Shown here: positions 1,252 to 12,885 of the stretch, piece by piece
How the letters are laid out: each line of letters starts with the position of its first letter
How positions within the stretch are numbered: the stretch's first letter is position 1
Source of the DNA: Gemmatimonadota bacterium
Lineage (GTDB): Bacteria; 4572-55; J002
NCBI GenBank assembly: GCA_003697105.1
Contig: RFFQ01000149.1
Coordinates: 1 to 14,551 of the forward strand
Reading direction: 5' to 3'
DNA length: 14,551 nt
Notes under the pieces: generated by a model
What the model saw: only the letters and a program-made list of their open reading frames with translations
Databases searched by the model: none
Told to the model about the DNA's origin: nothing
Position numbers and translations under genes: made by a program

Positions 1252-2370
1252 ATGGCAAACAAAAAAATTCTAGTTGTGGAAGATGAACATATTACGGCGG
1301 AATATCTTGGGTATCGCTTAAAGCATCTGGGATATGAGGTACTGCCTATTCTCAAGCGTGGGGAGGATGTTATCGAACAGGTGGGTGACCTGCAACCTGA
1401 TCTTATCTTGATGGATATTATGTTGGAGGGTGATATGGATGGGATTGAAGCCGCCGAACGAGTTCAGCAAACCCATGATATTCCAGTAATCTATTTAACC
1501 GCCCTTTCAGACCCCCGTACATTTGAACGGGCAAAAGTTACCGGTTCCTTTGCCTATCTGGTCAAACCGTTTGATGATACCCAGTTACACCGGACTATTG
1601 AGATGACTCTGTATAAAAATATGCTGGAACAGCAGATCAAAGAAAGCCAGAAGTGGTTCTCCACAACCCTGCGTAGTATTGGAGATGGGGTGATTGCGTC
1701 TGATGATACCGGACGGGTCAAATTTATCAATCCAGCGGCAGTTACGATTCTGGAAACGGCGGCAGAAGAGTTGACCGGGCAATCGTGGTACACGTTTTGT
1801 CATCTCATCGATGCCGATACCGGCGAGCGCCTGTCAGACCCGGTCGAGCAGGTACTTTCCTCCAAACAGCAAGTTGATCTGGACGACCGCGCCGCTTTAG
1901 TCCTCGCTGATGAACGCCAGAAATTTGTCGAGGTCAATGCCTCGCCGATTATGGTAAAGCCGGGTATCGTAAACGGTGTGGTCATGGTCATCCGTGACAT
2001 CAGCCGGAAAAAAGCGGTGGAAGAAGACCTTCGCATCAAGGATATGGCAATTGCTTCTTCCATTAATGCAATGGTTATCATGGATTTAAGTGGCAATTTG
2101 ACGTATGCCAACCGCTCGTTTAGGGATCTCTGGGGCTATGACCACCCTGAGGATTGGATGGGTGTGCCGAGTACCCATTTCTGGAAAATGGAGGAAAAAG
2201 CGGATGAGATTGTGGAATCCTTGCTGGAAGATGAAAGCTGGAGCGGCAAATTGACCGCGATCCGGCGGGATGGCTCGACGTTTGAGGTGCAATATTCAAT
2301 GACAATGGTGGTGGATGACACCAACAGACCGATCTGCCTGTTGGCATCCTTTGTCGAACTTTCCGCCTAA
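1252..2370 (+). CDS. Response regulator with two PAS domains (REC-PAS-PAS), no visible output domain
   Basis: The 372-residue cytoplasmic protein begins with a receiver domain (about 4-120): acidic pocket E10-D11, phosphoacceptor D55, T83 in LTALSD and K105 in LVKPF. A short helical stretch follows, then PAS 1 (about 134-240, SIGDGVIASDDTGRVKFINP) and PAS 2 (about 255-368, SSINAMVIMDLSGNLTYAN). This front end is common in hybrid histidine kinases, but no H-box, HATPase, GGDEF, EAL or DNA-binding domain follows before the TAA. I chose the ATG at 1252 because GGGAGAG lies 6 bp upstream; an in-frame TTG at 1237 would add five residues. It follows cheB by 19 bp. It probably relays a phosphosignal by protein contact, or is a remnant of a larger kinase. 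Function beyond signalling is not known. Confidence 0.88.
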   Translation: MANKKILVVEDEHITAEYLGYRLKHLGYEVLPILKRGEDVIEQVGDLQPDLILMDIMLEGDMDGIEAAERVQQTHDIPVIYLTALSDPRTFERAKVTGSFAYLVKPFDDTQLHRTIEMTLYKNMLEQQIKESQKWFSTTLRSIGDGVIASDDTGRVKFINPAAVTILETAAEELTGQSWYTFCHLIDADTGERLSDPVEQVLSSKQQVDLDDRAALVLADERQKFVEVNASPIMVKPGIVNGVVMVIRDISRKKAVEEDLRIKDMAIASSINAMVIMDLSGNLTYANRSFRDLWGYDHPEDWMGVPSTHFWKMEEKADEIVESLLEDESWSGKLTAIRRDGSTFEVQYSMTMVVDDTNRPICLLASFVELSA

Positions 2371-3554
2371 AATGACCATTTCAGGCGCGCATAAACGAAA
2401 TTGCCGGTATCTCCGAATTCAGTACCCGGCTCGCCGCGGTAAAATTGACTGATCAGCAATACGTCCCAATTTTCCCAAGCAGACCATGCCAAAGCTGGAC
2501 TTGCAAGAAAGGATTTATCATGAGGGTTCATCATCATTGCCATGGTACCGGTTACCAGCGGTGAAAATTGGTATCGCATTTCGCCAAACAGGGAGTGCCG
2601 TGCCCGTGATAGCTGATTTGCCGGTAAGGGGTCTAACCGCAGTGCCCCGCCGGCTTTTTTAGTAGTACCTCGTTCGTTGTAAAGTGCTTCTAAGTGCACA
2701 TAAAGCGAATTGCTGAACGTGTAATCGGCGGAAAGTGCTCCCACCAGATACGGCGCACCCTCTGCCTTCTCCTGCGGGATAAAATACGAAAATTCACCCC
2801 GAAACCCGCCTCCCCGGATGTCACCCGCCCAGCCGAAACCGGCAACCCATTGTTTCTGCAGATATTGCCCGCCAATAATCTGAAAATCATAGTTCCACCG
2901 GTTGAGTTGCACCAAACCGGCATAGACCTGATCCCTTTCTGCCTCTGCCAACCGGATTGCCGTTTCTATTTTGGAGGCAATACCCGTGTAGTACTGTACT
3001 CGCACACCATCCGTGCCGGGTCGTTCCTCGTAATCAAAATCGGCGTAGGAATAGGTGTTAAATAGATCATGAGGATTCCAAACGAGATTGATCCCCCAAT
3101 TCACCCGTTGTCGCCCGATTCGTACTTGCAGATTATCCCGGTAATAATCACACCACAACCGGTCAACCATTGTGTGGATGAGCAGGTTATCCTGTTCCAG
3201 CCAAACCGTGGATAAATCCACATAACCGGTATCTTTTTCCAACATTTCGGCTAAAAATGGATTTTCTTTAACACTGTTACCCCCAAATGCCCGGTTACGG
3301 ATTTCCACGGCGGCAGTCCAGTTCAGATTGGCGTACCACTTAAAATTGAGCCGGTTGTGTACGAGCGCATCAAATGTCGGTTCTTTCCAATCCCGGTCAT
3401 AGGCGACACGGGGCAGAATTTTGAGATAACCGTTGTACGTGTAATCCAGCGTCCACCCGTTGTCCCAAGGGGTCAGGATCAGGCAACATAACGCAAAATA
3501 GGCCATCACCTTGCGTTTTTGTGCCTTTGGGGTAACATCACATTTTGGTTTCAT
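2367..3554 (-). CDS. Outer-membrane beta-barrel protein, DUF1302/porin-like (hypothetical)
   Basis: The 395-residue product has a basic start (KAQKRK), a hydrophobic stretch (VMAYFALCCLIL) like a Sec signal, then many alternating aromatic/polar strands and a C-terminal ARLKWSF. A terminal phenylalanine is typical of proteins assembled by the Bam machinery. A central motif (RIGRQRVNWGINLVWNPHDL, then FNTYSYADF and ERPGTDGVRV) resembles the GRQ..WG...NP.D signature of DUF1302-like and related barrels. It is the last gene of the transporter operon and overlaps the ATPase gene by 17 nt. I start at the ATG at 3554, with GGA about 9 bp upstream; a longer frame to 3605 has no signal-like beginning, and an internal ATG at 3506 is a second option. 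Its stop overlaps the stop of the convergent response-regulator gene. It is likely the outer-membrane component; substrate unknown. Confidence 0.8.
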   Translation of the reverse strand: MKPKCDVTPKAQKRKVMAYFALCCLILTPWDNGWTLDYTYNGYLKILPRVAYDRDWKEPTFDALVHNRLNFKWYANLNWTAAVEIRNRAFGGNSVKENPFLAEMLEKDTGYVDLSTVWLEQDNLLIHTMVDRLWCDYYRDNLQVRIGRQRVNWGINLVWNPHDLFNTYSYADFDYEERPGTDGVRVQYYTGIASKIETAIRLAEAERDQVYAGLVQLNRWNYDFQIIGGQYLQKQWVAGFGWAGDIRGGGFRGEFSYFIPQEKAEGAPYLVGALSADYTFSNSLYVHLEALYNERGTTKKAGGALRLDPLPANQLSRARHSLFGEMRYQFSPLVTGTMAMMMNPHDKSFLASPALAWSAWENWDVLLISQFYRGEPGTEFGDTGNFVYARLKWSF

Positions 3555-4224
3555 CCGAGAGAATCCTGCCGTCTTCCAACCAGACCACGCGCCGGGCACG
3601 GTCAATCACCCGTTGGTCATGGGTGGAAAAAATAAAGGTGACTTTTTCCTGCTGATTCAATTCTGCCATCAAATCTAAGAGGTTTGCTGTGGAGGTAGAA
3701 TCCAGATTGGCGGTTGGTTCGTCGGCTAACACAAATTTGGGTTTTGCGGCCAGTGCCCGTGCCACCGCGACCCGTTGTTGTTGCCCGCCGGAAAGCTGTC
3801 CAGGGCGGTTATGAGCCCGATCTTTCAAGCCAACGGCGTTGAGGAGTTCCAACGCACGCTGTTGCCGCTCTTTTTTGGGGCGTTTTTGCAAAAGCATGAT
3901 AAATTCGATGTTTTCCTGTGCGGTCAAGACGGGAATCAGGTTGTATGCTTGAAAGACAAAGCCAATGGACTTTAGCCGGAAATCGATCAAATCATTGCCT
4001 TTCAGTTGGGTAATTTCCGTTTCTTCCACCCAGACTTTGCCGGAGGTTGGCTGGTCTAAACCGCCGATCAGGTTCAGGAGTGTCGTTTTCCCCGATCCGG
4101 AGGGTCCAACCAGCGCGGTAAATTCTCCTTTTTCAATGGTTAAGTCGATGCCATTCAGGGCATGGACAGGCACCATACTACTGTTATAGGTTTTTTTCAG
4201 GTCTTTTGTGCGAATAACTGCCAT
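3538..4224 (-). CDS. ABC transporter ATP-binding protein, LolD/MacB type
   Basis: A cytoplasmic nucleotide-binding subunit that would power the FtsX-type permeases of this operon. The 228 residues hold a complete ABC domain: Walker A GPSGSGKTT (40-48), a Q-loop (FVFQAYNL), signature LSGGQQQR, Walker B FVLADEPT with D-loop NLDS, and the switch histidine in FSTHD. The spacing, and phrases such as ADEPTANLDS, are typical of the LolD/MacB/FtsE group that pairs with MacB/FtsX-fold permeases. The ATG at 4224 has GGAG 7 bp upstream and starts the usual first strand; a 23-residue upstream extension lacks support. It begins 14 bp after the glycosyltransferase stop and its end overlaps the barrel gene, so the three are likely translated from one mRNA. 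A symbol is withheld because the cargo need not be lipoprotein. Confidence 0.95.
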   Translation of the reverse strand: MAVIRTKDLKKTYNSSMVPVHALNGIDLTIEKGEFTALVGPSGSGKTTLLNLIGGLDQPTSGKVWVEETEITQLKGNDLIDFRLKSIGFVFQAYNLIPVLTAQENIEFIMLLQKRPKKERQQRALELLNAVGLKDRAHNRPGQLSGGQQQRVAVARALAAKPKFVLADEPTANLDSTSTANLLDLMAELNQQEKVTFIFSTHDQRVIDRARRVVWLEDGRILSDETKM

Positions 4225-4238
4225 CGTGTTGCTCCGTT

Positions 4239-5441
4239 TTACGGGTCGAGAGTTTCGATAAATTCGATCAGTCGTTTGCCGCGATTTTGCCACGAGTAGT
4301 ATTTGGCGGCGGCTAATGCCGCCTGTTGCATGCGCCGGTATTCCACCGGATCGGCAAATAGGCGATGGAGGGCGTCCGCCAAGGAGGCGGCATCCTGCGG
4401 AGTGAACATCACACCTTGCTCACCATCGGTCATCACATCCTCGACGGTGGGCATCCGCGAGGCTACGACGGGCAGACCGGCGCGGTAATAATCAAAAATT
4501 TTGGTGGGGCAGGTCACCCCAGCACTACGGAAGGTCGGTTTGTAATTCACCAGCCCGGCACTGGCGTTTTTACGGATAAATTCCATCATCTCTTTGTGTG
4601 GTAACCATGTTTTCAGTTGCACAATTCCTGTCAGACCTTTTTCTGCCACTTTGGGGGCGATTTCTGCTTTGTCCTGATCACGCAGACCGAGCCACGTAAA
4701 GGTGATGCCACTATGGCGACACAGGTGTATCGCCTCCAGAATCCGATCCACGTCAATATGGGCTGTCAACCGCCCGATATACACGAGGGATTTTCGCTCG
4801 TATTGGGGTAGTTGGTTGGGATCGACCTCGTCTCCGCTCACATGGGCACCCAGCGGTAAAAATCGGGTGGGGATACGCACAAAATCCGCCAGATAGAGCC
4901 GTTCTTGAGGGCGAGTGATGCAAACCAACCCATCACAGCGATTTAAACATAGGTGTTCAATAAGGCGATAGGCGGAAAACCGTTCCACCAAACGGCGGGG
5001 CGGTCGCGGGGGTAAGTCCGGCAAATTTTGGTCGCCGTGATAACCGTGTGCTTCAAAAATAACGATGAGTCCCAGCCATTTTTTGAGCCCGATCAAATAG
5101 GGCAGCAACGTAGAGTTCCGGGTAATGACCACCGGCTTACCGCAGGTGCGATGGCGGGCAACATACCGTAAGGCTTGCCCGTAAAACCATGCCGTCCATT
5201 TGAATTTCCCCAGAATTTGGCGGCGGAAGCAGACCACCCGAAAATTGGGCAAAGGGTCTAAGCCGAATTTTTCACGCAGAAGGGCATCCGTCTGGATCGC
5301 CGGTTCGCCTTCTACAATGAGGGTAGTAGGAATTCCGCCAAGCGCCAGCCCGTAGGTCGATTGAGTTGAAACCGTCGTCATGGGGGAGCTGGAAATCCAT
5401 CGAAACTTATTGATAAAAAATATGTGATATGGTGATGTCAT
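4239..5441 (-). CDS. Glycosyltransferase family 4-like protein
   Basis: The 400-residue protein has the two-Rossmann-fold GT-B layout of GT4 enzymes, which move a sugar from a nucleotide donor to a lipid, protein or glycan acceptor, usually at the inner face of the cytoplasmic membrane. The N-terminal strand (HIFFINKF) is followed by a helix ending GGIPTTLIVEG. The C-terminal half opens with SLVYIGRLTAHIDVDRILEA and holds CPTKIFDYYRAGLPVVAS (311-328), the donor-site signature; the usual glutamate after KxF is aspartate (D317). No signal peptide or clear membrane helix is seen. The ATG at 5441 keeps the first strand, although no Shine-Dalgarno is visible. It sits between the second permease (95 bp upstream) and the ATPase (14 bp downstream), an unusual place. 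Donor and acceptor are unknown. Confidence 0.85.
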   Translation of the reverse strand: MTSPYHIFFINKFRWISSSPMTTVSTQSTYGLALGGIPTTLIVEGEPAIQTDALLREKFGLDPLPNFRVVCFRRQILGKFKWTAWFYGQALRYVARHRTCGKPVVITRNSTLLPYLIGLKKWLGLIVIFEAHGYHGDQNLPDLPPRPPRRLVERFSAYRLIEHLCLNRCDGLVCITRPQERLYLADFVRIPTRFLPLGAHVSGDEVDPNQLPQYERKSLVYIGRLTAHIDVDRILEAIHLCRHSGITFTWLGLRDQDKAEIAPKVAEKGLTGIVQLKTWLPHKEMMEFIRKNASAGLVNYKPTFRSAGVTCPTKIFDYYRAGLPVVASRMPTVEDVMTDGEQGVMFTPQDAASLADALHRLFADPVEYRRMQQAALAAAKYYSWQNRGKRLIEFIETLDP

Positions 5442-5536
5442 GGCGGTTGTGTTGATGTTTTTGTGGGTACAAAAATATGAAATACCGTATAAAATTGCGT
5501 TATGTTGTCAGGATGTTACCGGACTGCCTGCCCGTA
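5442..5536 (-). other. 95-bp intergenic gap inside the transporter operon
   Basis: This is the only sizeable gap in an operon whose other junctions overlap or lie within about 25 bp. It is rather AT-rich in the middle. I see no convincing hairpin terminator. Only weak promoter-like pieces occur on the minus strand (CTGACA followed by TATACGGTATT at poor spacing), so it may hold a minor internal promoter for the glycosyltransferase-ATPase-barrel half, or nothing. Confidence 0.4.
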
Positions 5537-6754
5537 TTAAATTGTTCGGATGGCTTCTGCCGGATGTAGTTTTAATGCCTTCCAAGCTGGATACAGCGCC
5601 GAAAGTATCGCGGTGATGAAGACCATCAGGCCGACTTCAAGATAGAATTCTGGAGCCAGCACTGGATAAATCACGGTGTCATAACCAAAATCTCGTAACC
5701 CTTCGGCAAAGACGGACAGATCAATACCGGTACGAGCAACCAACCAGACCGTACCCATAGAGACCAACGTGCCTACTATTCCGCCCGTGGCAGCTAAAAA
5801 GAGGGTTTCCAGCAAAATCATACTAAACAAGCGAAATTTATTCATTCCGACGGCCATGAGCATACCGAGTTCGCGCACCCGCTCCAAAATTGCCATCAAC
5901 ATGGTGTTGATAATGCCAAACGCTAAGGCAACAAGGATAATCAGCATGAAAATCGACGAGGTTTGATTCATAATTTCATTAATGTAGTCCAATTCCGGTG
6001 CAGTCTCTTTCCATGTTTCCACTTTCAGAGCGGGCAACTGGGTTCTCAGGGTGGTGGCAACGGGGTCAACGGCTTCAACGTCGTGCAGAATCAGGGCAAT
6101 CTCATGGATGGCATTTTCTGTATCTAACAAGTGATTGAGGTCTTCTGCCCGCACATACACTTGATGTTCATCGAACCGGGAGGAGATGGTCTCAAAGATA
6201 CCCACCACGCGAAACGCGCCGGCGGTGATGTTTCCGTGCCGGTCTTGCAGGGTCAAGATGATTTTAGACCGCACGTTTACTTTAAGTTTAGTTGCCAATT
6301 TTTTCCCGATGAGGATGGGATTTCGTTTTACACTCTCATCAAAATAGGCGCCTTCGGTGATCTTCTCGTATATTTTGCTGACCTGCCGTTCTGCGGCGGG
6401 GATGATGCCATCAATTTGCACGCCGGAACCCGCTGCTGCTGAAGAGACCATCCCCATGACCACCGTTCGTCCGGCGGCGGCGCGAACTTCCGGCAGGCGT
6501 CGTAAGCTGTCTATAAGTGCCTGCCCCTTGGGAATGACCCATTTCACCTGCTGATTATCGGCAAATTGGGGATGGTGAATTTGCAGATGTGAAATGCTCG
6601 TTTCGATCAATGCGTCCATCCGTTGGTTGACCATCCCTTGCGAGAGCGCAATGACGAACAAACCGCCCCACAACCCCAAGGCAATGGCAAACATAATCAC
6701 CAAACTGCGCAATTTACTGCGCCAGATGTTGCGCCACGCGATTAAAAACAGCAT
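5537..6754 (-). CDS. ABC transporter permease, FtsX/LolC-E/MacB fold (second permease)
   Basis: The 405-residue inner-membrane protein has the four-helix FtsX/MacB topology: one helix near the N-terminus (about 17-39, after AWRNIWRSKLRSL), a large periplasmic domain (about 40-265), and three C-terminal helices (about 267-290, 315-338, 370-392). The segment NTMLMAILERVRELGMLMAVGM is the cytoplasmic coupling region typical of the FtsX domain, and the end (YPAWKALKLHPAEAIRTI) is also diagnostic. Such permeases extract or push substrates at the outer leaflet by mechanotransmission rather than classical channel transport. GAGG lies 5 bp before the ATG at 6754. It starts 12 bp after the DUF2834 gene and is clearly related to the other permease of the operon, so the two probably form a heterodimer with the ATPase. 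Confidence 0.93.
   Translation of the reverse strand: MLFLIAWRNIWRSKLRSLVIMFAIALGLWGGLFVIALSQGMVNQRMDALIETSISHLQIHHPQFADNQQVKWVIPKGQALIDSLRRLPEVRAAAGRTVVMGMVSSAAAGSGVQIDGIIPAAERQVSKIYEKITEGAYFDESVKRNPILIGKKLATKLKVNVRSKIILTLQDRHGNITAGAFRVVGIFETISSRFDEHQVYVRAEDLNHLLDTENAIHEIALILHDVEAVDPVATTLRTQLPALKVETWKETAPELDYINEIMNQTSSIFMLIILVALAFGIINTMLMAILERVRELGMLMAVGMNKFRLFSMILLETLFLAATGGIVGTLVSMGTVWLVARTGIDLSVFAEGLRDFGYDTVIYPVLAPEFYLEVGLMVFITAILSALYPAWKALKLHPAEAIRTI
6718..6739 (-). repeat. 22-bp identical run shared by the two permease genes (copy in second permease)
   Basis: These 22 bases are identical to 8283-8304. They encode the same part of both proteins, the AWRNIWR motif just before the first membrane helix, so they reflect paralogy of the two permease genes rather than a mobile repeat. 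Confidence 0.85.
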
Positions 6755-6766
6755 GTTTTCCTCGTA

Positions 6767-7078
6767 TCAAGTGGGTTTGGAAGATTCTCTCAGGTACAAA
6801 AATAAGGGTAATCCGAACGACACGCCCACAACAACCGTACCTATCAGGGGCAACCACACTAATTTTACCGGTTGCCGTTTATGTTCGTGGATGATCCAGA
6901 TCATCAGCACCGTGGCAGAGATGACAATATCCAACCCGAAAGCGGCGCTGATGGGATTGGCAAACAACAAATCGATTATCCGTGGCAAATCAAGCCCGTT
7001 TTGGAATAACCACGGGATTGCTTGAGAATAGGGCAAAATGCCGCCGATAATAGTTAAGGTTAAGTATAGTTTTTTCAT
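6767..7078 (-). CDS. DUF2834 family small membrane protein
   Basis: The 103-residue product has three probable membrane helices: an N-terminal one (LYLTLTIIGGILPY), a middle one (FGLDIVISATVLMIWII) and a C-terminal one (LVWLPLIGTVVVGVSFGLPLFLYLR). The pattern of LPY near the start, a FANPISAAFGLD stretch and the closing GLPLFLYLRE matches my memory of DUF2834 (PF11196), a family of about 100 residues with no known function. The ATG at 7078 has AAGG 7 bp upstream; an upstream in-frame ATG at 7105 would overlap the previous gene's stop and adds no conserved sequence. It sits 23 bp after the first permease and 12 bp before the second, so it may be an accessory subunit of the transporter. That role is inferred from position alone. 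Confidence 0.82.
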   Translation of the reverse strand: MKKLYLTLTIIGGILPYSQAIPWLFQNGLDLPRIIDLLFANPISAAFGLDIVISATVLMIWIIHEHKRQPVKLVWLPLIGTVVVGVSFGLPLFLYLRESSKPT

Positions 7079-7101
7079 GGGATTACCTTTAGGGTTTCCG
7101 T

Positions 7102-8325
7102 TCAATACCGCATGGCATCCACTGCCCGCAACCGTAACAAGCGCACCACTGGGTAGATTGCCGCCAAGCCGGCTAATAGTAACACGGCACCGGCTTGGGC
7201 AAAAAATATCCCCGGTTCCACGGAAAAGGGTAAGACCGGTTCCATTCCGTAGCTAGCAACGGCTTCTGCGGCTTCCCCCGTCAGATGGATGGGGTGATAG
7301 TGCATGTAGATCAACATGGGAATACCGGTGATCATGCCGGCGGTGACCCCGATCCATGCTAAGAAGATGGATTCAATCAGGATAACCCCCACCAGTTGTT
7401 TTTGGCGCATACCGACTGCCACCAGCACCCCAAATTCGCGCATTCGTTCGGCGATCATCATCACTAGAGTGTTAAAAATCCCAAAACCGATGATCAGATA
7501 GAGCAGCCAGAGCATGATCAGCCCGCCGGCGTTATCCAATTGGATGCTTTGGACAATTTCCGGCATTAGTTCCGACCAATCCATGATTTCGTATGTGGCG
7601 GTATCCAGCGTTGCGCGCAGGGTGTGCATCACCTCGCTTAGATATTTTTGATCCGTAATGTTGAGTGCCAAGGAAGTTAACCGGTTGGGGGCAGAATAGA
7701 ACCACTGGGCTTCGCTCAATGTTAGATAGACCAGTTGCCGGTTGAGTTCCGGTGTGGGGAACTCAATAATGCCACGAATGGGGTATTTTCCGGCGGCGCT
7801 CATGGCGTGGTAGCCTTGCCCAATTAAGACCAGCGTATCGCCCACACTCACTTGCAGATATTCCGCTAAGCCACTGACGACCAAAACACCGTTATCGTTA
7901 GCTTGCAGATAATCCCCTTTGATGCGTCGATCTTTTAAACCGGTCAACTGGTCTTCTTTCTCGGGGTCCACGCCGATGACAATGACTCCTTTGGTCAATT
8001 CCTCCGTAGCGGCAAGGGCAAACGACTCTAAACGCGGGATGACCTGTGTGACATGTTCTATCTGGGAGATCGTGCGGATCATCGTCGAGTCGGCTTCAAA
8101 GGTATTTTCCAGTGTTTGATCGTTCCAGTATCCAGCGGCATGGATTTGGGCGTAACCGGTGTTCAGGGTCACCACATTTTTGATCATGTGGTTATATGAA
8201 CCGAGTTGCATTGAGCGCATAAAAATTGCCAATAACACGGCAAAAAAGATCGATGAAATGGTGATTAGCGTCCGGCGTTTATTGCGCCAGATGTTGCGCC
8301 ACGCCAAATTGAGATACATGGTCAT
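7102..8325 (-). CDS. ABC transporter permease, FtsX/LolC-E/MacB fold (first permease)
   Basis: The 407-residue inner-membrane protein has one helix near the N-terminus (about 20-40, after AWRNIWRNKRRTL), a periplasmic domain of roughly 230 residues, and three C-terminal helices. The coupling segment FNTLVMMIAERMREFGVLVA and the tail (YPVVRLLRLRAVDAMRY) are typical of LolC/E and MacB permeases. It lacks the fused ATPase of MacB, so it must use a separate one, presumably the LolD-type protein of the same operon. Its ATG at 8325 overlaps the stop of the LolA-like gene by one base (TAATG), which implies translational coupling; the upstream Shine-Dalgarno is weak. A second ATG two codons in (8319) is possible. 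With the other permease it likely forms a LolC/LolE-like pair. Confidence 0.93.
   Translation of the reverse strand: MTMYLNLAWRNIWRNKRRTLITISSIFFAVLLAIFMRSMQLGSYNHMIKNVVTLNTGYAQIHAAGYWNDQTLENTFEADSTMIRTISQIEHVTQVIPRLESFALAATEELTKGVIVIGVDPEKEDQLTGLKDRRIKGDYLQANDNGVLVVSGLAEYLQVSVGDTLVLIGQGYHAMSAAGKYPIRGIIEFPTPELNRQLVYLTLSEAQWFYSAPNRLTSLALNITDQKYLSEVMHTLRATLDTATYEIMDWSELMPEIVQSIQLDNAGGLIMLWLLYLIIGFGIFNTLVMMIAERMREFGVLVAVGMRQKQLVGVILIESIFLAWIGVTAGMITGIPMLIYMHYHPIHLTGEAAEAVASYGMEPVLPFSVEPGIFFAQAGAVLLLAGLAAIYPVVRLLRLRAVDAMRY
8283..8304 (-). repeat. 22-bp identical run shared by the two permease genes (copy in first permease)
   Basis: Identical to 6718-6739. It codes for AWRNIWR at the N-terminus of the first permease. 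The flanking bases differ at once, so conservation is confined to the motif. Confidence 0.85.
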
Positions 8326-9077
8326 TAGCGAACCCGTTTCATGTTTTGTTGCGAGAAAAAGGTATCGTCAATATCGATATTGAAATCTGCCTCAAGATAC
8401 TCCACCACGGTTTTGTGTCCGGCTTTGTCTGGGTCGGCTGGGATCATTTCCAAGCGGGTGGGAATCGTCCGGTCATCCATTTTTTTGAATTCGGAAAGGT
8501 TCATGGTTTGGACTAAATAGCCGTCCTCGTCGTAGTATTCAACTTGAACTTGAAAATAGGTCTCTTTGGCAATCCAAATCCGAATTTTGCCCCATACAAC
8601 TGCGGCTTCGGGTTTGGGCGTCATTTCAATTTTGTAGCAATCGTAGCCCCGGATGGTTTCCGTCCCAAGTAGGGTGTGATGATAATCTTCGACGATGGAT
8701 GATTCTTTGATCAAGTCATCATTGGTGAAGTCCGAGCCCATCCATGACTGCATCATCATGGAGGGTGGGATTTTAATGGTGCGTTCAATGGAGGGCACCC
8801 AGTTCCAGATTTCCTTATCGCGCATCAAAAAGGTGGTGCCTTTATCCCGTGCGGGAGCGGTGATCACCATCAAGGACCGATCTCTGCCTTTTGACCACCC
8901 CTTTAGGGTCATTTCGCGCTGCCAATCAGGGCGAATGATGGTCATTTTCATTTCCATGTAACTGCTCTCCCCACGCATCAATTGGTCTGCTTTGCGGACG
9001 ATTTCAGTGGCGTCTTGGGCGTGGAGTGGTAACGTAACTACTAATATTATCAGTATATTAAGGTTTATTTTGTTCAT
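8325..9077 (-). CDS. Outer-membrane lipoprotein-sorting protein-like (LolA-fold, PF17131 type), periplasmic
   Basis: The 250-residue precursor has a Sec signal peptide (MNKINLNILIILVVTLPLHA, likely cut before QDATEI), so the mature protein is periplasmic. It has no lipobox cysteine. The body shows features of the family annotated as outer membrane lipoprotein-sorting protein (PF17131): ADQLMRGESSYMEMKMTI, APARDKGTTFLMRDKEIWNW, MGSDFTNDDLI and GYDCYKIEMTPKP. The fold is a LolA-like half-barrel that can shield acyl chains. Family members often sit beside FtsX permeases or MMPL/RND exporters, but their cargo is mostly unknown, and the name should not be taken as proof of lipoprotein transport. 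The start overlaps the tetR stop (ATGA), with GGAG 7 bp upstream, and the stop overlaps the permease start. It probably carries a hydrophobic substrate across the periplasm. Confidence 0.92.
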   Translation of the reverse strand: MNKINLNILIILVVTLPLHAQDATEIVRKADQLMRGESSYMEMKMTIIRPDWQREMTLKGWSKGRDRSLMVITAPARDKGTTFLMRDKEIWNWVPSIERTIKIPPSMMMQSWMGSDFTNDDLIKESSIVEDYHHTLLGTETIRGYDCYKIEMTPKPEAAVVWGKIRIWIAKETYFQVQVEYYDEDGYLVQTMNLSEFKKMDDRTIPTRLEMIPADPDKAGHKTVVEYLEADFNIDIDDTFFSQQNMKRVR

Positions 9078-9673
9078 GATGTTTCTCCCGAATGAAGGGG
9101 TTGGGCATATTTTTGTAGGAGTAATTGCTTGACGGCATCCAACGGGTAATGTTCTGGATCGAGCATGTAGTGTAACCCGATCCCATCAAAAATGGCGCCC
9201 AATACTTTGGCTTCGCTTTGCGGGTCTTCCGCATCAATCGCTTGAAAGTAGGCTTCAAGCCAGCTGAATATTTCCGCAAAAACCGTCGCCAAAGTTTCTT
9301 GCAGTGCCTGCATAACATCCGGTTGCACCAACAGCCGGCTGTAGAGTTTCCAAAATTCGATATTTTCCCTTAATGAGGTAAAATAGGCGTCCAGTAATAC
9401 CCTCATTTTTTCATACGGGTTGGTGGTGTCTTCGGGCATCTCGAACATCCCAGAAATTTGAGTACAGCCATCTAAGATGATGGCTTGAAGCAAGGCGTTT
9501 TTACTTTCAAAGTAATTGTAGATCAATCCCACAGAAATACCTGCCTGCTTGGCAATGGTATTCATAGAAGTGGTATGAAATCCATTATTGGCAAAGCATT
9601 CCAGTGCGGCGCGCAGAATTTTTTGCTGGCTCTTTTCGCGTAAGGCTTCAAATTGTTCGGGTGTACGCGGCAT
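9074..9673 (-). CDS. TetR/AcrR-family transcriptional regulator
   Basis: A 199-residue DNA-binding protein, first gene of the transporter operon. The N-terminal helix-turn-helix (about 12-58) is a standard TetR domain: KILRAALECFANNGFHTTS, then MNTIAKQAGISVGLIYNYF and ESKNALLQAII. The rest is a helical ligand-binding and dimerisation domain that I cannot assign to a ligand class. GGAG lies 7 bp before the ATG at 9673; a 10-residue upstream extension to 9703 would start inside the palindrome and promoter, so it is rejected. The palindrome over the -10 just upstream strongly suggests that it represses its own operon and is released by a ligand, perhaps the transporter's substrate. Its stop overlaps the LolA-like start by 4 nt (ATGA). 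Confidence 0.94.
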   Translation of the reverse strand: MPRTPEQFEALREKSQQKILRAALECFANNGFHTTSMNTIAKQAGISVGLIYNYFESKNALLQAIILDGCTQISGMFEMPEDTTNPYEKMRVLLDAYFTSLRENIEFWKLYSRLLVQPDVMQALQETLATVFAEIFSWLEAYFQAIDAEDPQSEAKVLGAIFDGIGLHYMLDPEHYPLDAVKQLLLQKYAQPLHSGETS

Positions 9674-9690
9674 CTTTTTTCTCCATTTTG

Positions 9691-9708
9691 ATTGAATGTT
9701 CATTCAAT
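9691..9708. promoter_or_regulatory. Palindromic TetR-type operator overlapping the -10
   Basis: ATTGAATG-TT-CATTCAAT has perfect 8-bp arms around a 2-bp centre. The TGAATGnnCATTCA core is the form of site used by many TetR/AcrR regulators. It covers the end of the -10 and the expected start point, so a bound regulator would block transcription. Confidence 0.8.
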
Positions 9709-9733
9709 ATAATCCGTGCAATGAATCTGTCAA
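9706..9733 (-). promoter_or_regulatory. Sigma70-like promoter of the tetR-transporter operon
   Basis: On the minus strand a perfect -35 TTGACA (9728-9733) is followed after 16 bp by TATATT (9706-9711). Transcription would begin near 9698, about 25 bp before the tetR ATG. The promoter lies in the 91-bp gap after the M23 peptidase gene. Confidence 0.75.
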
Positions 9734-9740
9734 GATTAAA

Positions 9741-9758
9741 ATTGAATGAGTCTTCAAT
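9741..9758. promoter_or_regulatory. Possible second, degenerate operator upstream of the -35
   Basis: ATTGAA-6 bp-TTCAAT matches the outer arms of the operator at 9691-9708 (6 of 8 arm bases on each side), while its centre is not symmetric. Its midpoint is 50 bp from that of the first site, close to five helical turns. It could be an auxiliary binding site or chance in AT-rich DNA. Confidence 0.4.
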
Positions 9759-9764
9759 CAACTA

Positions 9765-11492
9765 TTAATGGCACTGAAAATAACCGGATTTTTCAGCACG
9801 GTTTCCAGCACGGTCGGTGACTTGTATTTGGAAATCATATCGCCCGGGCGGGAGGTCAGGCGGGAGACTCACGTGGACGGAATGGCTTTCCGGATCATAG
9901 ATGGAAATTTGCTTTTTGCCATTGAGGTAGATATGAATGTCATCTTCAAAGATACCCGATGCGTTGTCCGTGAGTACCGCGCGGATCGATGGAGGTGTAC
10001 GGAACGTTTTGCCATTTGGCGGTGATAGGTGGGAGATTTGGGGCGGTAGGGTATCCGCAATCACGGCAAATGTTCCCAGATGGTAGATCGAGGCAGAGAT
10101 GGTACCCTCTAATACGTTCAGGATATTATTTTCAAACCGCCATTGTTTGCCGTCCCATTGATAAACACCTGATTGGCGCACCGGCAGGTGGGGGTCGTAG
10201 CGGAAACTGAGCCGAACATATTCACGAAACGGTACATCATCGGGTGACCACTGGAGGATCGGGCTGGCGAACTGCATTCCACGGGGCAGGGTATCGCTCC
10301 AACTTGATGCTGGTATTTCAATGGATGTTATTGCCAGATCACGATAAAGGGACCCTTCTGTCAGGTGGAGCCGGGCGGTGTGATTCGCGGAGAAAATGGT
10401 GTGAGCCTCTCCAGCCCGGGCGTTAGGCGGGTTTGCTACGGGAGCAACGGGGTTTGAATCCACGGGACAGGAAACATCGATTTTGAAATCAAGCGTTGCG
10501 GTATTGCCGCTCGCATCCGAGGCGACAATGCGGAAGGAGTGGCGTCCCGCGCCGAGTTTGCGAGTATCCAAAATGCCGTGACCGTAAGGTTGATCGCCAA
10601 AAACGGGCACATCACACCGGTATTCCCGGAAGAGGCGATAGTAACGACCTTTGCCACGCCGTTGCAGGCTAAAATCAATGATGGATTCAATTTGGAGGGT
10701 AGTGTCATAGGAAAATTCATCAAATTGAATAAAAAAACGGGATTGATTCTCCTGAAATAGTTCGATCCGGTAGGGTCCGTAACGATTATGAATCGCGTTT
10801 GACTGTTGGTCTGTCACGCGGACGCCGACAAAAAATTTGCCGCAAATTTCTGGTATGGTGCGGATTTTATCCGATCCCCACAAAATGAGGGGGCGATTCT
10901 GTCCGTTGATCGTAGTGGTTTCATCTACCGGGGTGAGGCTAATGGCTAAAAAGTTGGGGGCGATGCTATCCGGCACGGCAAAGCCATGAAGGAGCGGGTT
11001 CAGCGGATTATCATTTAATTTACGAAATTCAAAATGGAGATGGGGGGCGCCAATGCCGGTTGAGCCGGAAAACGCGATGATGTCCCCCTTTTGAACGGGG
11101 ATCGCGTTGGGGGGGAGTGTGATATCAAATCGATAGCGTTGAAGCCGTTGTTGTTCCTGCTTTGCTCGTTCTTCAATAACACCGGCAAAACGTTGCAAAT
11201 GGGCATAAACCGCAATATGCCCGTCTGTGGTGGTCAGATAGACTGCTTTGCCGTAGCCGGTGGCGGCGGCTCGCAAACGGGAGATATAGCCATCGGCGAT
11301 GGCATAGCAGGCGAAACCCTCCTGATTCCATGTTTTAAAGTCAAGCCCGGCATGAAAGTGACGAGGACGGTATTCGGCAAAGCTGGAGGTTAAATAGGGG
11401 GGATTTATATCGAGGGGCCAGTGGTAGTTTTCAGCACTCCAGAGGATACCGGTTGGGAGAAAGAGCAACAACGTAAACCAAAGATAGCGCAT
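9765..11492 (-). CDS. Exported M23-family metallopeptidase with Ig-like C-terminal modules
   Basis: The 575-residue precursor has a signal peptide (MRYLWFTLLLFLPTGILWSA, cut near residue 20) and an M23 (lysostaphin/LytM-type) domain at about 24-170. Zinc ligands are visible: H47 and D51 in FHAGLDF, and H153 with H151 in APHLHFEF; H98 in VYAHL is a likely catalytic residue. Family members cut cell-wall peptide cross-links or act as scaffolds; an intact motif set argues for activity. A long insert (about 100-130, rich in K, E, Q and R) separates two strands. The C-terminal 400 residues contain Ig/Big-like units, e.g. GRHSFRIVASDASGNTATLD (about 320) and GRYDFQIQVTDRAGNRAEKS near the end, preceded by PPQISHLSPPNGKTF. 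No Shine-Dalgarno is evident at the ATG. It begins 28 bp after the chemoreceptor gene and is probably co-transcribed with it. Confidence 0.9.
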   Translation of the reverse strand: MRYLWFTLLLFLPTGILWSAENYHWPLDINPPYLTSSFAEYRPRHFHAGLDFKTWNQEGFACYAIADGYISRLRAAATGYGKAVYLTTTDGHIAVYAHLQRFAGVIEERAKQEQQRLQRYRFDITLPPNAIPVQKGDIIAFSGSTGIGAPHLHFEFRKLNDNPLNPLLHGFAVPDSIAPNFLAISLTPVDETTTINGQNRPLILWGSDKIRTIPEICGKFFVGVRVTDQQSNAIHNRYGPYRIELFQENQSRFFIQFDEFSYDTTLQIESIIDFSLQRRGKGRYYRLFREYRCDVPVFGDQPYGHGILDTRKLGAGRHSFRIVASDASGNTATLDFKIDVSCPVDSNPVAPVANPPNARAGEAHTIFSANHTARLHLTEGSLYRDLAITSIEIPASSWSDTLPRGMQFASPILQWSPDDVPFREYVRLSFRYDPHLPVRQSGVYQWDGKQWRFENNILNVLEGTISASIYHLGTFAVIADTLPPQISHLSPPNGKTFRTPPSIRAVLTDNASGIFEDDIHIYLNGKKQISIYDPESHSVHVSLPPDLPPGRYDFQIQVTDRAGNRAEKSGYFQCH

Positions 11493-11520: not shown

Positions 11521-12807
11521 TTAAGACGTACTGGATTTCACCGGAGTCAAAAAATTTTCCGTGAGGGATTTCATTTGATCGACATTTGCATGAACGGAAT
11601 GGGCGACATCGCGTTGTTGTTCCGTCGCCGATGCAATCTCAAAAATCATATTGAAATTTTCATCCGCACTTTGGGAAATCTGTTGGATCAATTCATCCAT
11701 TGTTTGTAAATTATGGCGTTGCCGGGTTGAGAGGTCGGCTATTTTTTGCAGTGCTTCTGCTAATCCGCGAATCTCTTCCACAATCGTTTGAAGTAATTTG
11801 GTGGCGGCGGTAATTACGGTATAGCCGGTGGTGATCTCATCCAGTTCCGCTTGGCTTTGGGTGATGGTTTCTTCCGCGATGGATTGAATTTCCAGCACTT
11901 GCTCGTCAATATTTCGCAATGAGATATGGGTTGTTTCGTTTAATTCCCGGATTTCGTCGGCAATAACGGCAAATCCTTTGCCGAATTCGCCGGCTCGGGC
12001 AGATTCGATTGCCGCATTGAGGGAAAGCAGGCTGGTTTGTTGCGAAATTTCACTGACTGTTCGTAGCACCGAGTCAATTTCGGACAGGCGCGAGGCGAGT
12101 TCCGAGATTTTCATCGTGGTGGTGGATGCCACGTTTGAGATGGACTCGATTCGCTCCAAGGCGTGTTGGGACGCCGTACCTCCTTCTTCCGCCGCATTGG
12201 AGATATGCCCGTAAATATCTTTTGCTTGCTCTACAGCCGTACTAACTTCTTGCGAAAAGTCGGAGATCTCTTTGGAAAGGCGAACCAATGACATTACGCT
12301 TTTGGATTGGCTGCTCAGGCTACGCGCCACATGTTGAACATGATCGGTGGTCTGGCGGGTTTGTTCGTCCAATGTATGGAACGTGTGCTGAAATTGATCC
12401 ATTGCCAGATGCAGTTGCCGGCTGTTTTCTTGAAAATTTGTCAGGGCGTACAGTTCCCGGTCAGAAAGGGTGTTTAGCCGGTGGAAAATCTGTGCAAATT
12501 CATCTGTGCCGTGGACGGGTAAGGGCGATAGTTGTGTATCATCTAACGTGAGGAGGGCGTCTAAATGGGTTTTCATCTGCTTCAGGGGCGTTTGTAACAG
12601 CCATCGGACAAACCCGTATTGAATCCCGCCGAGCACGCCACCAAGGATTGCTACGAGGACGTAGGATGTCATTTTGGGCGGGGAAACCCCGCTAATGGTG
12701 TGGAGCAGTAGTGTTAGCCCCACGGCGCAGAATATCCCTGTGACGACAAGCACCCCTCCCAAACGGTGGGAGAGATTCCACAATTTCCACGGTTGCCTAT
12801 CCGCCAT
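11521..12807 (-). CDS. Methyl-accepting chemotaxis protein without a sizeable sensor domain
   Basis: The 428-residue chemoreceptor has two membrane helices close together (about 16-38 and 47-68), joined by only about 8 periplasmic residues. A HAMP-like stretch (about 69-115) and a long coiled-coil signalling domain follow. The hairpin tip is clear: EISQQTSLLSLNAAIESARAG, then EFGKGFAVIADEIREL, matching the CheA/CheW-contacting consensus with small changes (S for N in QTN, S for A in EAA). With no extracellular ligand domain it may sense membrane state or an intracellular partner. The ATG at 12807 has GAGG 6 bp upstream; a 26-residue extension to 12885 would run into the -35 and is rejected. 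A strong promoter lies just upstream. Its adaptation enzyme could be the CheB encoded at the other end of the window. Confidence 0.92.
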   Translation of the reverse strand: MADRQPWKLWNLSHRLGGVLVVTGIFCAVGLTLLLHTISGVSPPKMTSYVLVAILGGVLGGIQYGFVRWLLQTPLKQMKTHLDALLTLDDTQLSPLPVHGTDEFAQIFHRLNTLSDRELYALTNFQENSRQLHLAMDQFQHTFHTLDEQTRQTTDHVQHVARSLSSQSKSVMSLVRLSKEISDFSQEVSTAVEQAKDIYGHISNAAEEGGTASQHALERIESISNVASTTTMKISELASRLSEIDSVLRTVSEISQQTSLLSLNAAIESARAGEFGKGFAVIADEIRELNETTHISLRNIDEQVLEIQSIAEETITQSQAELDEITTGYTVITAATKLLQTIVEEIRGLAEALQKIADLSTRQRHNLQTMDELIQQISQSADENFNMIFEIASATEQQRDVAHSVHANVDQMKSLTENFLTPVKSSTS

Positions 12808-12841
12808 CTGATGCCTCGTTTTGTTGTAAGTAAATACAGTA

Positions 12842-12859
12842 AATCCAGCAAGTTGGATT
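12842..12859. promoter_or_regulatory. Inverted repeat over the chemoreceptor -10/start region
   Basis: AATCCA-GCAAGT-TGGATT has perfect 6-bp arms around 6 bp and overlaps the first bases of the -10. It could be an operator for an unknown repressor or a 5'-UTR hairpin. No regulator gene is adjacent. Confidence 0.35.
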
Positions 12860-12885
12860 CTAAGGTGACGGTTATGAACTGTCAA
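12857..12885 (-). promoter_or_regulatory. Sigma70-like promoter of the chemoreceptor-M23 unit
   Basis: On the minus strand TTGACA (12880-12885) is followed after exactly 17 bp by TAGAAT (12857-12862), a near-consensus pair. The start point would be about 40-45 bp before the chemoreceptor ATG. This is a housekeeping-type rather than flagellar sigma28-type promoter. Confidence 0.75.

Follow-up and report, generated by a model that had tools for sequence, protein, structure and literature searches.

A repressor-linked, Lol-related ABC cassette with its own OprD-like barrel: a candidate trans-envelope shuttle exporter in a Gemmatimonadota bacterium

In a contig of a Gemmatimonadota bacterium (14,551 nucleotides, analyzed whole and here called the window), genes for a TetR-family regulator, a LolA-fold periplasmic carrier, two FtsX-type permeases, a LolD-type ATPase, and an outer-membrane barrel lie together. 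Is this set the housekeeping lipoprotein-sorting (Lol) machine of the cell, or does it carry something else across the envelope and, if so, in which direction?

The locus and its regulator

The cassette runs along the minus strand from 9703 to 2367 and contains eight co-directional genes (Table 1). That there are eight genes of these kinds, in one direction and at these positions, had been predicted, and Pfam and NCBIfam matches together with the coordinates confirmed all of it; the match is 3.9e-31 for DUF2834 and 4.1e-15 for the GT4 enzyme (Glyco_trans_1_4). The further claim that gene ends overlap or nearly touch holds except at the GT4 gene, which follows the preceding permease gene after a gap of 95 nt. 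The TetR gene likely starts at the inner of its two candidate positions because its relatives begin M(S)PR. In the window, the cassette has two-component and chemotaxis genes on its flanks; these signaling genes are not conserved at related loci. Rfam and tRNA scans gave no matches.

Table 1. Features of the cassette, with positions counted from the first letter of the window
Feature	Position	Strand	Remark
Upstream operator-like palindrome ATTGAAGACTCATTCAAT	9741..9758	-	
Promoter-like TTGACA-16-TATATT	9706..9733	-	11 of 12
Predicted TetR operator	9688..9708	-	palindrome ATTGAATGAACATTCAAT 9691-9708; 20-bp conserved site TTGAATGAACATTCAATCAA 9688-9707
TetR-family repressor gene	9074..9673	-	ORF listed from 9703, likely start 9673
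PF17131 LolA-fold periplasmic carrier	8325..9077	-	
FtsX/LolC-E-type permease 1	7102..8325	-	
DUF2834 small membrane protein	6767..7105	-	insertion, not kept in other cassettes
FtsX/LolC-E-type permease 2	5537..6754	-	
GT4 glycosyltransferase	4239..5441	-	insertion, not kept in other cassettes
LolD/MacB-type ATPase	3538..4224	-	ORF listed from 4293, likely start about 4224
OprD-like outer-membrane barrel (predicted), distantly DUF1302-related	2367..3554	-	start 3554 or 3506

The regulator matches PF00440 at 1.1e-17, and its TetR_N domain scores 64 bits against a cut-off of 24. At the cassette promoter lies a predicted 20-bp TetR operator that is conserved across phyla; in a held-out test it was present in 59 of 68 upstream regions, and shuffled controls gave none. 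The promoter-like element is the top match of a scan in which the number of sites was not above chance. A TetR_N domain above its cut-off and a conserved palindromic predicted operator at its own promoter would, judged from sequence, mark an autoregulated operon, and the same predicted operator lends support to the ligand control that had been proposed. We rejected a wider TetR regulon: the genome holds a single exact copy of the operator, and weaker matches are few and barely above the control count.

A six-gene unit kept in many lineages

Named genomes of at least seven phyla gave 58 testable loci (testable meaning at least 6.5 kb downstream, with one or more permease genes accepted as complete); 55 of these have the order carrier–FtsX–FtsX–ATPase–barrel in full, and TetR lies upstream in 57 of 69 named-genome loci. 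A broader, more divergent set of 32 loci includes about 22 complete ones, and at some divergent loci (L054, L074, and L079) the ATPase or the barrel was not detected. A second ABC class (L086 and L087) has the same five genes in the order barrel–ATPase–FtsX–FtsX–carrier. When the barrel is searched alone, a PF17131 carrier lies within 8 kb in 50 of 67 cases, each with a chance expectation of about 0.6%. Co-occurrence across genomes had been set beforehand as a test of the prediction, which withstood it: the gene set is kept together in many lineages. In the sole other genome examined from the source phylum (G001), the carrier is missing and so is the barrel.

Six genes make up the conserved unit: TetR, carrier, permease, permease, ATPase, and barrel. 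This precise combination appears to be undescribed so far. The GT4 and DUF2834 genes, which had been counted as parts of the system, are local additions; about 110 related loci yielded no copy of either, the nearest GT4 relatives (25–29%) sit away from cassettes, and we reject both as core parts. Because they occur in no other cassette, the suggestion of a glycolipid substrate lacks support. No neighboring pathway that could serve as a clue to the substrate (biosynthetic, catabolic, or lipoprotein genes) is conserved beside related cassettes.

A Lol-type motor on a carrier–barrel pair shared with RND pumps

Both permeases carry FtsX and MacB_PCD domains above the Pfam cut-offs, and the ATPase, whose best NCBIfam match is LolD, has the Walker A, Walker B, and LSGGQ motifs. 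The FtsX C-terminal domain, MacB-like periplasmic domain, and intact ATPase motifs place the motor among type VII (MacB/LolCDE) ABC systems. Among solved structures, the permeases are closest to LolF, LolE, and LolC: the model of permease 1 matches LolE/LolC with Z scores up to 30 and MacB with 19 and below, and FtsX proper is a weaker match than LolCDE. At the position of the LolC Hook, the hairpin that recruits LolA, permease 1 has a short conserved hairpin (QGYHGxxAAGKYPI); the corresponding segment of LolF is longer.

The cassette shares with LolCDE–LolA–LolB two FtsX permeases, a LolD-type ATPase, and a LolA-fold carrier. Unlike that system, it falls below the equivalog cut-offs (the permeases score 126.3 and 119.2 bits against 362.45 for LolC/E, TIGR02212; the ATPase scores 236.6 bits against 307.75 for LolD, TIGR02211), has PF17131 in place of PF03548, is predicted to be under TetR control, and includes a barrel in the operon. 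Moreover, the same genome has separate Lol genes: a PF03548 LolA on another contig (C140) and LolC/E- and LolD-like genes. A separate permease (C145) reaches 347.2 bits, just under the TIGR02212 cut-off. LolB was looked for in the source genome and not found. Because separate LolA, LolC/E-like, and LolD-like genes exist, we reject the cassette as the housekeeping Lol machine, and the prediction of an accessory, TetR-regulated, Lol-related cassette with its own barrel passed the check for a housekeeping lolCDE. That the barrel replaces LolB, as also proposed, we only infer, because the housekeeping pathway here is likewise without a detected LolB.

The carrier matches PF17131 at 1.5e-62, has no PF03548 match at E up to 0.1, and has a weak MucB_RseB match (20.2 bits); among solved structures it matches the PF17131-type proteins 9tp6, 4z48, 3buu, and 3bk5. 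The barrel is predicted to be an OprD-like pore: its AlphaFold model (pLDDT 85.9) matches Occ/OprD porins along almost its entire length with Z 24, followed by AlgE. No sequence relatives of the barrel were found among solved structures at E up to 1. An Omp85-type fold, raised by work on Borrelia considered below, has no support, as Occ/OprD matches lead and Pfam scans of 26 barrels gave no Omp85 domain. Against DUF1302 (PF06980) the barrel scores 16.5 bits, below the gathering cut-off of 23.2, and a match at E 0.01 was seen for just 3 of 26 barrels; in profile comparison, 172 columns align with DUF1302 proper (E 1.8e-9). The profile comparison of ABC-cassette barrels with eight RND-cassette barrels, six of them from loci over the PF06980 cut-off, is full-length (345 columns, E 2.7e-38).

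The motor next to the carrier–barrel pair in the RND loci is MMPL, and on the carrier tree and the barrel tree alike each motor type forms one side of a branch. Because the barrels of the ABC and MMPL/RND cassettes are homologous, as are the carriers, the idea that the cassette is the ABC counterpart of LolA-fold/DUF1302/MMPL sets gains support. The MMPL–PF17131–barrel cassettes (L191 and L192, with TetR; L195, L196, L085, and L089) share the PF17131 carrier, the full-length homologous barrel, and often TetR, but they use an MMPL/RND motor, and no operator common to ABC and RND cassettes was found. PG1178-81 of Porphyromonas gingivalis is probably a cassette of this kind, the barrel homology coming from the loci just named and not from P. 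gingivalis.

A role in moving lipoproteins would suit the LolA fold of the carrier, the closest solved relatives of the permeases, and the failure to find LolB. We nevertheless consider it unlikely because the LolC/E and LolD scores fall short, the carrier belongs to PF17131 and not to PF03548, the neighborhood has no conserved lipoprotein gene, TetR control would be unusual in a housekeeping sorter, and the same carrier–barrel pair also works with MMPL pumps. MMPL pumps are not known as lipoprotein movers.

A candidate exporter and its alternatives

The original prediction is thus partly supported: an accessory Lol-related cassette, an ABC counterpart, and ligand control have support, whereas GT4 and DUF2834 as parts, and a glycolipid, do not. 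We favor, with moderate confidence, an inducible, ATP-driven exporter of the shuttle type, for a small molecule that would be hydrophobic or amphiphilic. By binding the conserved palindrome, an operator predicted from sequence, TetR would keep the operon to which it belongs repressed until a ligand frees it. The ABC motor would pull a greasy small molecule from the inner membrane, and the carrier, a LolA-fold protein by family, would receive it in a hand-over like that from LolCDE to LolA and take it across the periplasm. The OprD-like barrel, presumably in contact with the carrier, would be the dedicated outer-membrane end point, where the substrate exits or enters the outer membrane. The cassette is sister to the MMPL–PF17131–barrel cassettes, which use a proton-driven RND pump as motor and in some cases include TetR.

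Related systems are consistent with such export. AmeABCD of Castellaniella defragrans and other DUF1302–DUF1329–YCF48–RND cassettes have a barrel of the same distant superfamily, a LolA-fold periplasmic protein, and a single inner-membrane motor, and they are inducible, as ours is predicted to be; loss of AmeABCD makes cells less tolerant of monoterpenes and increases the influx of Nile Red (PMC6394551). They differ in their HAE3 RND pump and DUF1329 carrier, where our cassette has an ABC motor and PF17131, in an extra YCF48-like AmeC, and in a much longer barrel (PMC6394551). Borrelia BBJ23-29, proposed on computational grounds only as a trans-envelope export path (PMC13078400, February 2026), also combines a MacB-like type VII ABC, a separate ATPase, a LolA-like carrier, and an outer-membrane barrel, but its barrel is Omp85-type, its permease a homodimer, and the described cluster has two TPR proteins and no TetR. 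The type VII system YbbAP is a proposed extractor of hydrophobic compounds (PMC12646458). MacAB–TolC and YbbAP–TesA share type VII mechanics with the cassette, which lacks a MacA-type adaptor, TolC, and TesA and has a carrier and its own barrel instead. We counted against export the uptake habit of Occ/OprD porins, the lack of a conserved biosynthetic flank, a LolC Hook that is not clearly present, and some incomplete divergent loci.

Occ/OprD porins mostly serve uptake, and the fold of the barrel would suit a retrograde route: a hydrophobe would enter through the barrel, travel on the carrier to the inner membrane, and be accepted or sensed there by the ABC complex. An alkane-induced MMPL–LolA fusion with a neighboring porin in Thalassolituus has been interpreted as alkane transport (PMC6304351), and Porphyromonas operons of TetR, MMPL, and carrier, PG1178-81 among them, are raised under iron or haem limitation (PMC10434189, PMC10470040). 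Such uptake seems quite improbable, however, because the permeases group with LolCDE, catabolic genes are not conserved nearby, and characterized type VII ABC transporters either work in the outward direction or draw their substrates out of the inner membrane (PMC12646458). A sensing complex, with mechanical signaling as in FtsEX and the carrier as an RseB-type sensor, could draw on the FtsX domains, the weak MucB_RseB match, and the flanking signaling genes, but it is very improbable: those flanks are not conserved, FtsX proper is structurally the weaker match, and a dedicated pore conserved with the carrier and RND pumps that can stand in for the ABC motor fit transport.

Beyond the export reading itself, we suggest tentatively, as possible rather than probable, that these cassettes form a distinct and widespread exporter class, in which an ABC motor, a soluble shuttle, and an OprD-like pore discharge hydrophobic small molecules without a TolC conduit or LolB, and in which carrier and pore form a single module that either motor can drive, the ATP-driven LolCDE type or the proton-driven RND type. 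To our knowledge, ABC efflux over two membranes goes through TolC-type tubes, and LolA-type shuttles serve lipoproteins. If true, a six-gene, repressor-controlled combination of LolCDE-type motor, LolA-fold shuttle, and substrate-type pore, found in many phyla, would be another layout, and a large set of proteins whose sole annotation is "outer membrane lipoprotein-sorting protein" would gain a function. It also points to a conserved carrier–pore pair on which one motor can be exchanged for another.

Composition of the cassette and its place in the genome

The eight-gene minus-strand cassette that the original prediction described is indeed present. By Pfam and NCBIfam, its genes encode a TetR regulator (PF00440), a PF17131 carrier, an FtsX/MacB_PCD permease, a DUF2834 protein, a second FtsX/MacB_PCD permease, a GT4 glycosyltransferase, a LolD/MacB-type ATPase, and a barrel whose sole match, to DUF1302, falls below threshold. 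In the sequence itself, the Walker A, signature, and Walker B motifs of the ATPase are all intact, the carrier begins with a signal sequence that lacks a lipobox, and Phe is the last residue of the barrel. There is an ATGA overlap between tetR and the carrier gene, the carrier and first permease genes also overlap, and relatives are similarly tight (median gaps of 4-32 nt). Chemotaxis and signalling genes lie on both flanks; M23-like genes, as directly upstream of tetR here, occur near cassettes at three related loci (L064, L067, and L093).

Features of the window and of related loci
Feature	Positions	Remark
CheB-like gene	132-1232	flank
Response-regulator/PAS gene	1237-2370	flank
Cassette	9703-2367	minus strand
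Second palindrome	9691-9708	overlaps end of -10
Promoter-like TTGACA-16-TATATT		before tetR ORF
Upstream palindrome	9741-9758	upstream of TTGACA-16-TATATT
M23 peptidase with Ig-like domains	9765-11492	directly upstream of tetR
Methyl-accepting chemotaxis protein	11521-12885	flank
Second PF17131 protein	C192:1444-2250	window's own genome (L013)
DUF1302-type barrel	L199:5630-6937	window's own genome (C150)
Secreted CAP-domain protein (PF00188)	L105:12406-13068	related locus

The cassette also proves to be accessory rather than housekeeping, as predicted: the same genome has, on other contigs, a separate PF03548 LolA (C140), a LolD-LolC/E pair (C145), and a further LolC/E-like permease (C111). 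PF03550 LolB was not found in this genome. In profile searches, LolF, LolE, and LolC rank ahead of MacB for both permeases, and a model of permease 1 (pLDDT 91.7) scores up to Z 30 against LolE/LolC and no more than Z 19 against MacB. The permeases and ATPase fall below the LolC/E and LolD equivalog cut-offs. The carrier profile matches solved PF17131-type proteins (9tp6, 4z48, 3buu, and 3bk5). The second PF17131 gene of this genome has a divergent TetR gene and, on its short contig, no transporter beside it.

The barrel model (AlphaFold, mean pLDDT 85.9) is one large beta-barrel, closest among solved folds to Occ/OprD porins (Z ~24), then to AlgE and sugar porins; no sequence relative was found in the PDB. 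Its most constant part is the stretch GRQRINWGxxxVWNPNDLFN...EERPG. When barrels alone were searched for, 50 of the 67 recovered lay within 8 kb of a carrier, several of these genomes having also supplied query rows. The DUF1302-type barrel gene elsewhere in the genome adjoins a response regulator and histidine kinase near an lpxC-fabZ fusion; neither a carrier nor a pump lies there.

Conservation of the cassette and probable exchange of its motor

The carrier, permease, ATPase, and barrel genes stay together in other genomes. A carrier search of 290 genomes gave 32 loci at ~37-47% identity, all but the window outside its phylum; about 22 are complete in the order carrier, two permeases, ATPase, barrel, and contig ends cut several of the others. 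A named-genome search gave, among the matches listed (588 places matched), 80 loci at 53-64% identity, by titles and taxonomy from Bacteroidota, Calditrichota, Ignavibacteriota, Balneolota, Rhodothermota, Zixiibacteriota, and Delongbacteria. Among these listed matches, 58 loci extend far enough downstream to be judged, and the cassette is complete in 55 of them (at least one permease gene being accepted); TetR lies upstream in 57 of 69. Both sets were chosen by carrier closeness, and the counts describe the cassettes of this carrier clade rather than all PF17131 proteins. One other genome of the window's phylum was searched and had neither carrier nor barrel.

In a second ABC class (L086 and L087; partial in L084 and L088), the genes run barrel-ATPase-FtsX-FtsX-carrier, and the carriers of this class branch as a sister group. 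Because linkage survives this rearrangement, we argue that the five genes work together. Permease number and length vary: two cassettes (L103 and L161) have three permease genes, and two loci (L054 and L062) have permeases of 611-618 aa, ~200 residues longer than usual, with the extra sequence between the MacB_PCD and FtsX domains; no ATPase was detected beside those of L054. At two others, near contig ends (L068 and L072), a single permease gene was found beside the ATPase, possibly a homodimeric version.

The GT4 and DUF2834 genes, proposed as parts of the system, are found in no other cassette; across 192 genomes, the most similar GT4 sequences (25-29% identical) lie away from cassettes. 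Other lineages have further insertions, namely DUF6713, four-helix proteins, and, in ~14 loci, mostly Prolixibacteraceae, a CAP-domain protein encoded between the ATPase and barrel genes.

Searches with DUF1302 and with the carrier yielded RND sisters. An MMPL pump accompanies a PF17131 carrier and barrel, with TetR (L191 and L192) or with none detected (L195, L196, L085, and L089); two loci (L203 and L205) have TetR, MMPL, and barrel with no carrier detected, and AmeABCD-type sets were also found (L200; by layout, L198 and L201). Compared with hhalign, ABC-cassette barrels match RND-cassette barrels from end to end (E 2.7e-38, 345 columns), versus 172 columns (E 1.8e-9) for cassette barrels against DUF1302 proper. 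One branch separates the motor types in both the carrier tree (100/100) and the barrel tree (81/77); these sequence trees fit a single motor exchange, a reading to be taken with caution because the ABC rows were picked by nearness to the window.

Probable regulation by TetR

A 20-bp matrix built from other tetR upstream regions (consensus TTGACYGAMCGKTCRGTCAA) scores the window site, excluded from training, at 20.9 bits. In a five-fold held-out test, 59 of 68 tetR upstream regions reach 14 bits, and shuffled sequence reaches at most 10.7. Because its site is the only exact operator match in the whole genome, the window TetR would appear to be a local repressor. The operator was not found at tetR genes of RND cassettes.

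A proposed mechanism

A full-text search, with most subscription journals outside its coverage, returned no published description of the cassette. The nearest published idea is the Borrelia BBJ23-29 cluster (PMC13078400), which differs in that its barrel is Omp85 and its permease homodimeric. The anchors for function are indirect: AmeABCD is linked to monoterpene tolerance (PMC6394551) and YbbAP to hydrophobic compounds (PMC12646458), Porphyromonas TetR-MMPL-carrier operons respond to iron or haem (PMC10434189, PMC10470040), and a Thalassolituus MMPL-LolA fusion with a porin is alkane-induced (PMC6304351).

Composition, folds, linkage, and operator are all shown here; for the scheme that we favour, we infer the substrate class, direction, and every hand-over. 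Some eukaryotic CAP proteins bind lipids, and thus the inserted CAP-domain protein may be a clue to the substrate. In the favoured scheme, a ligand would induce the cassette, a hydrophobe would be pulled out of the inner membrane at the expense of ATP, the LolA-fold protein would carry it, and the barrel would receive it.
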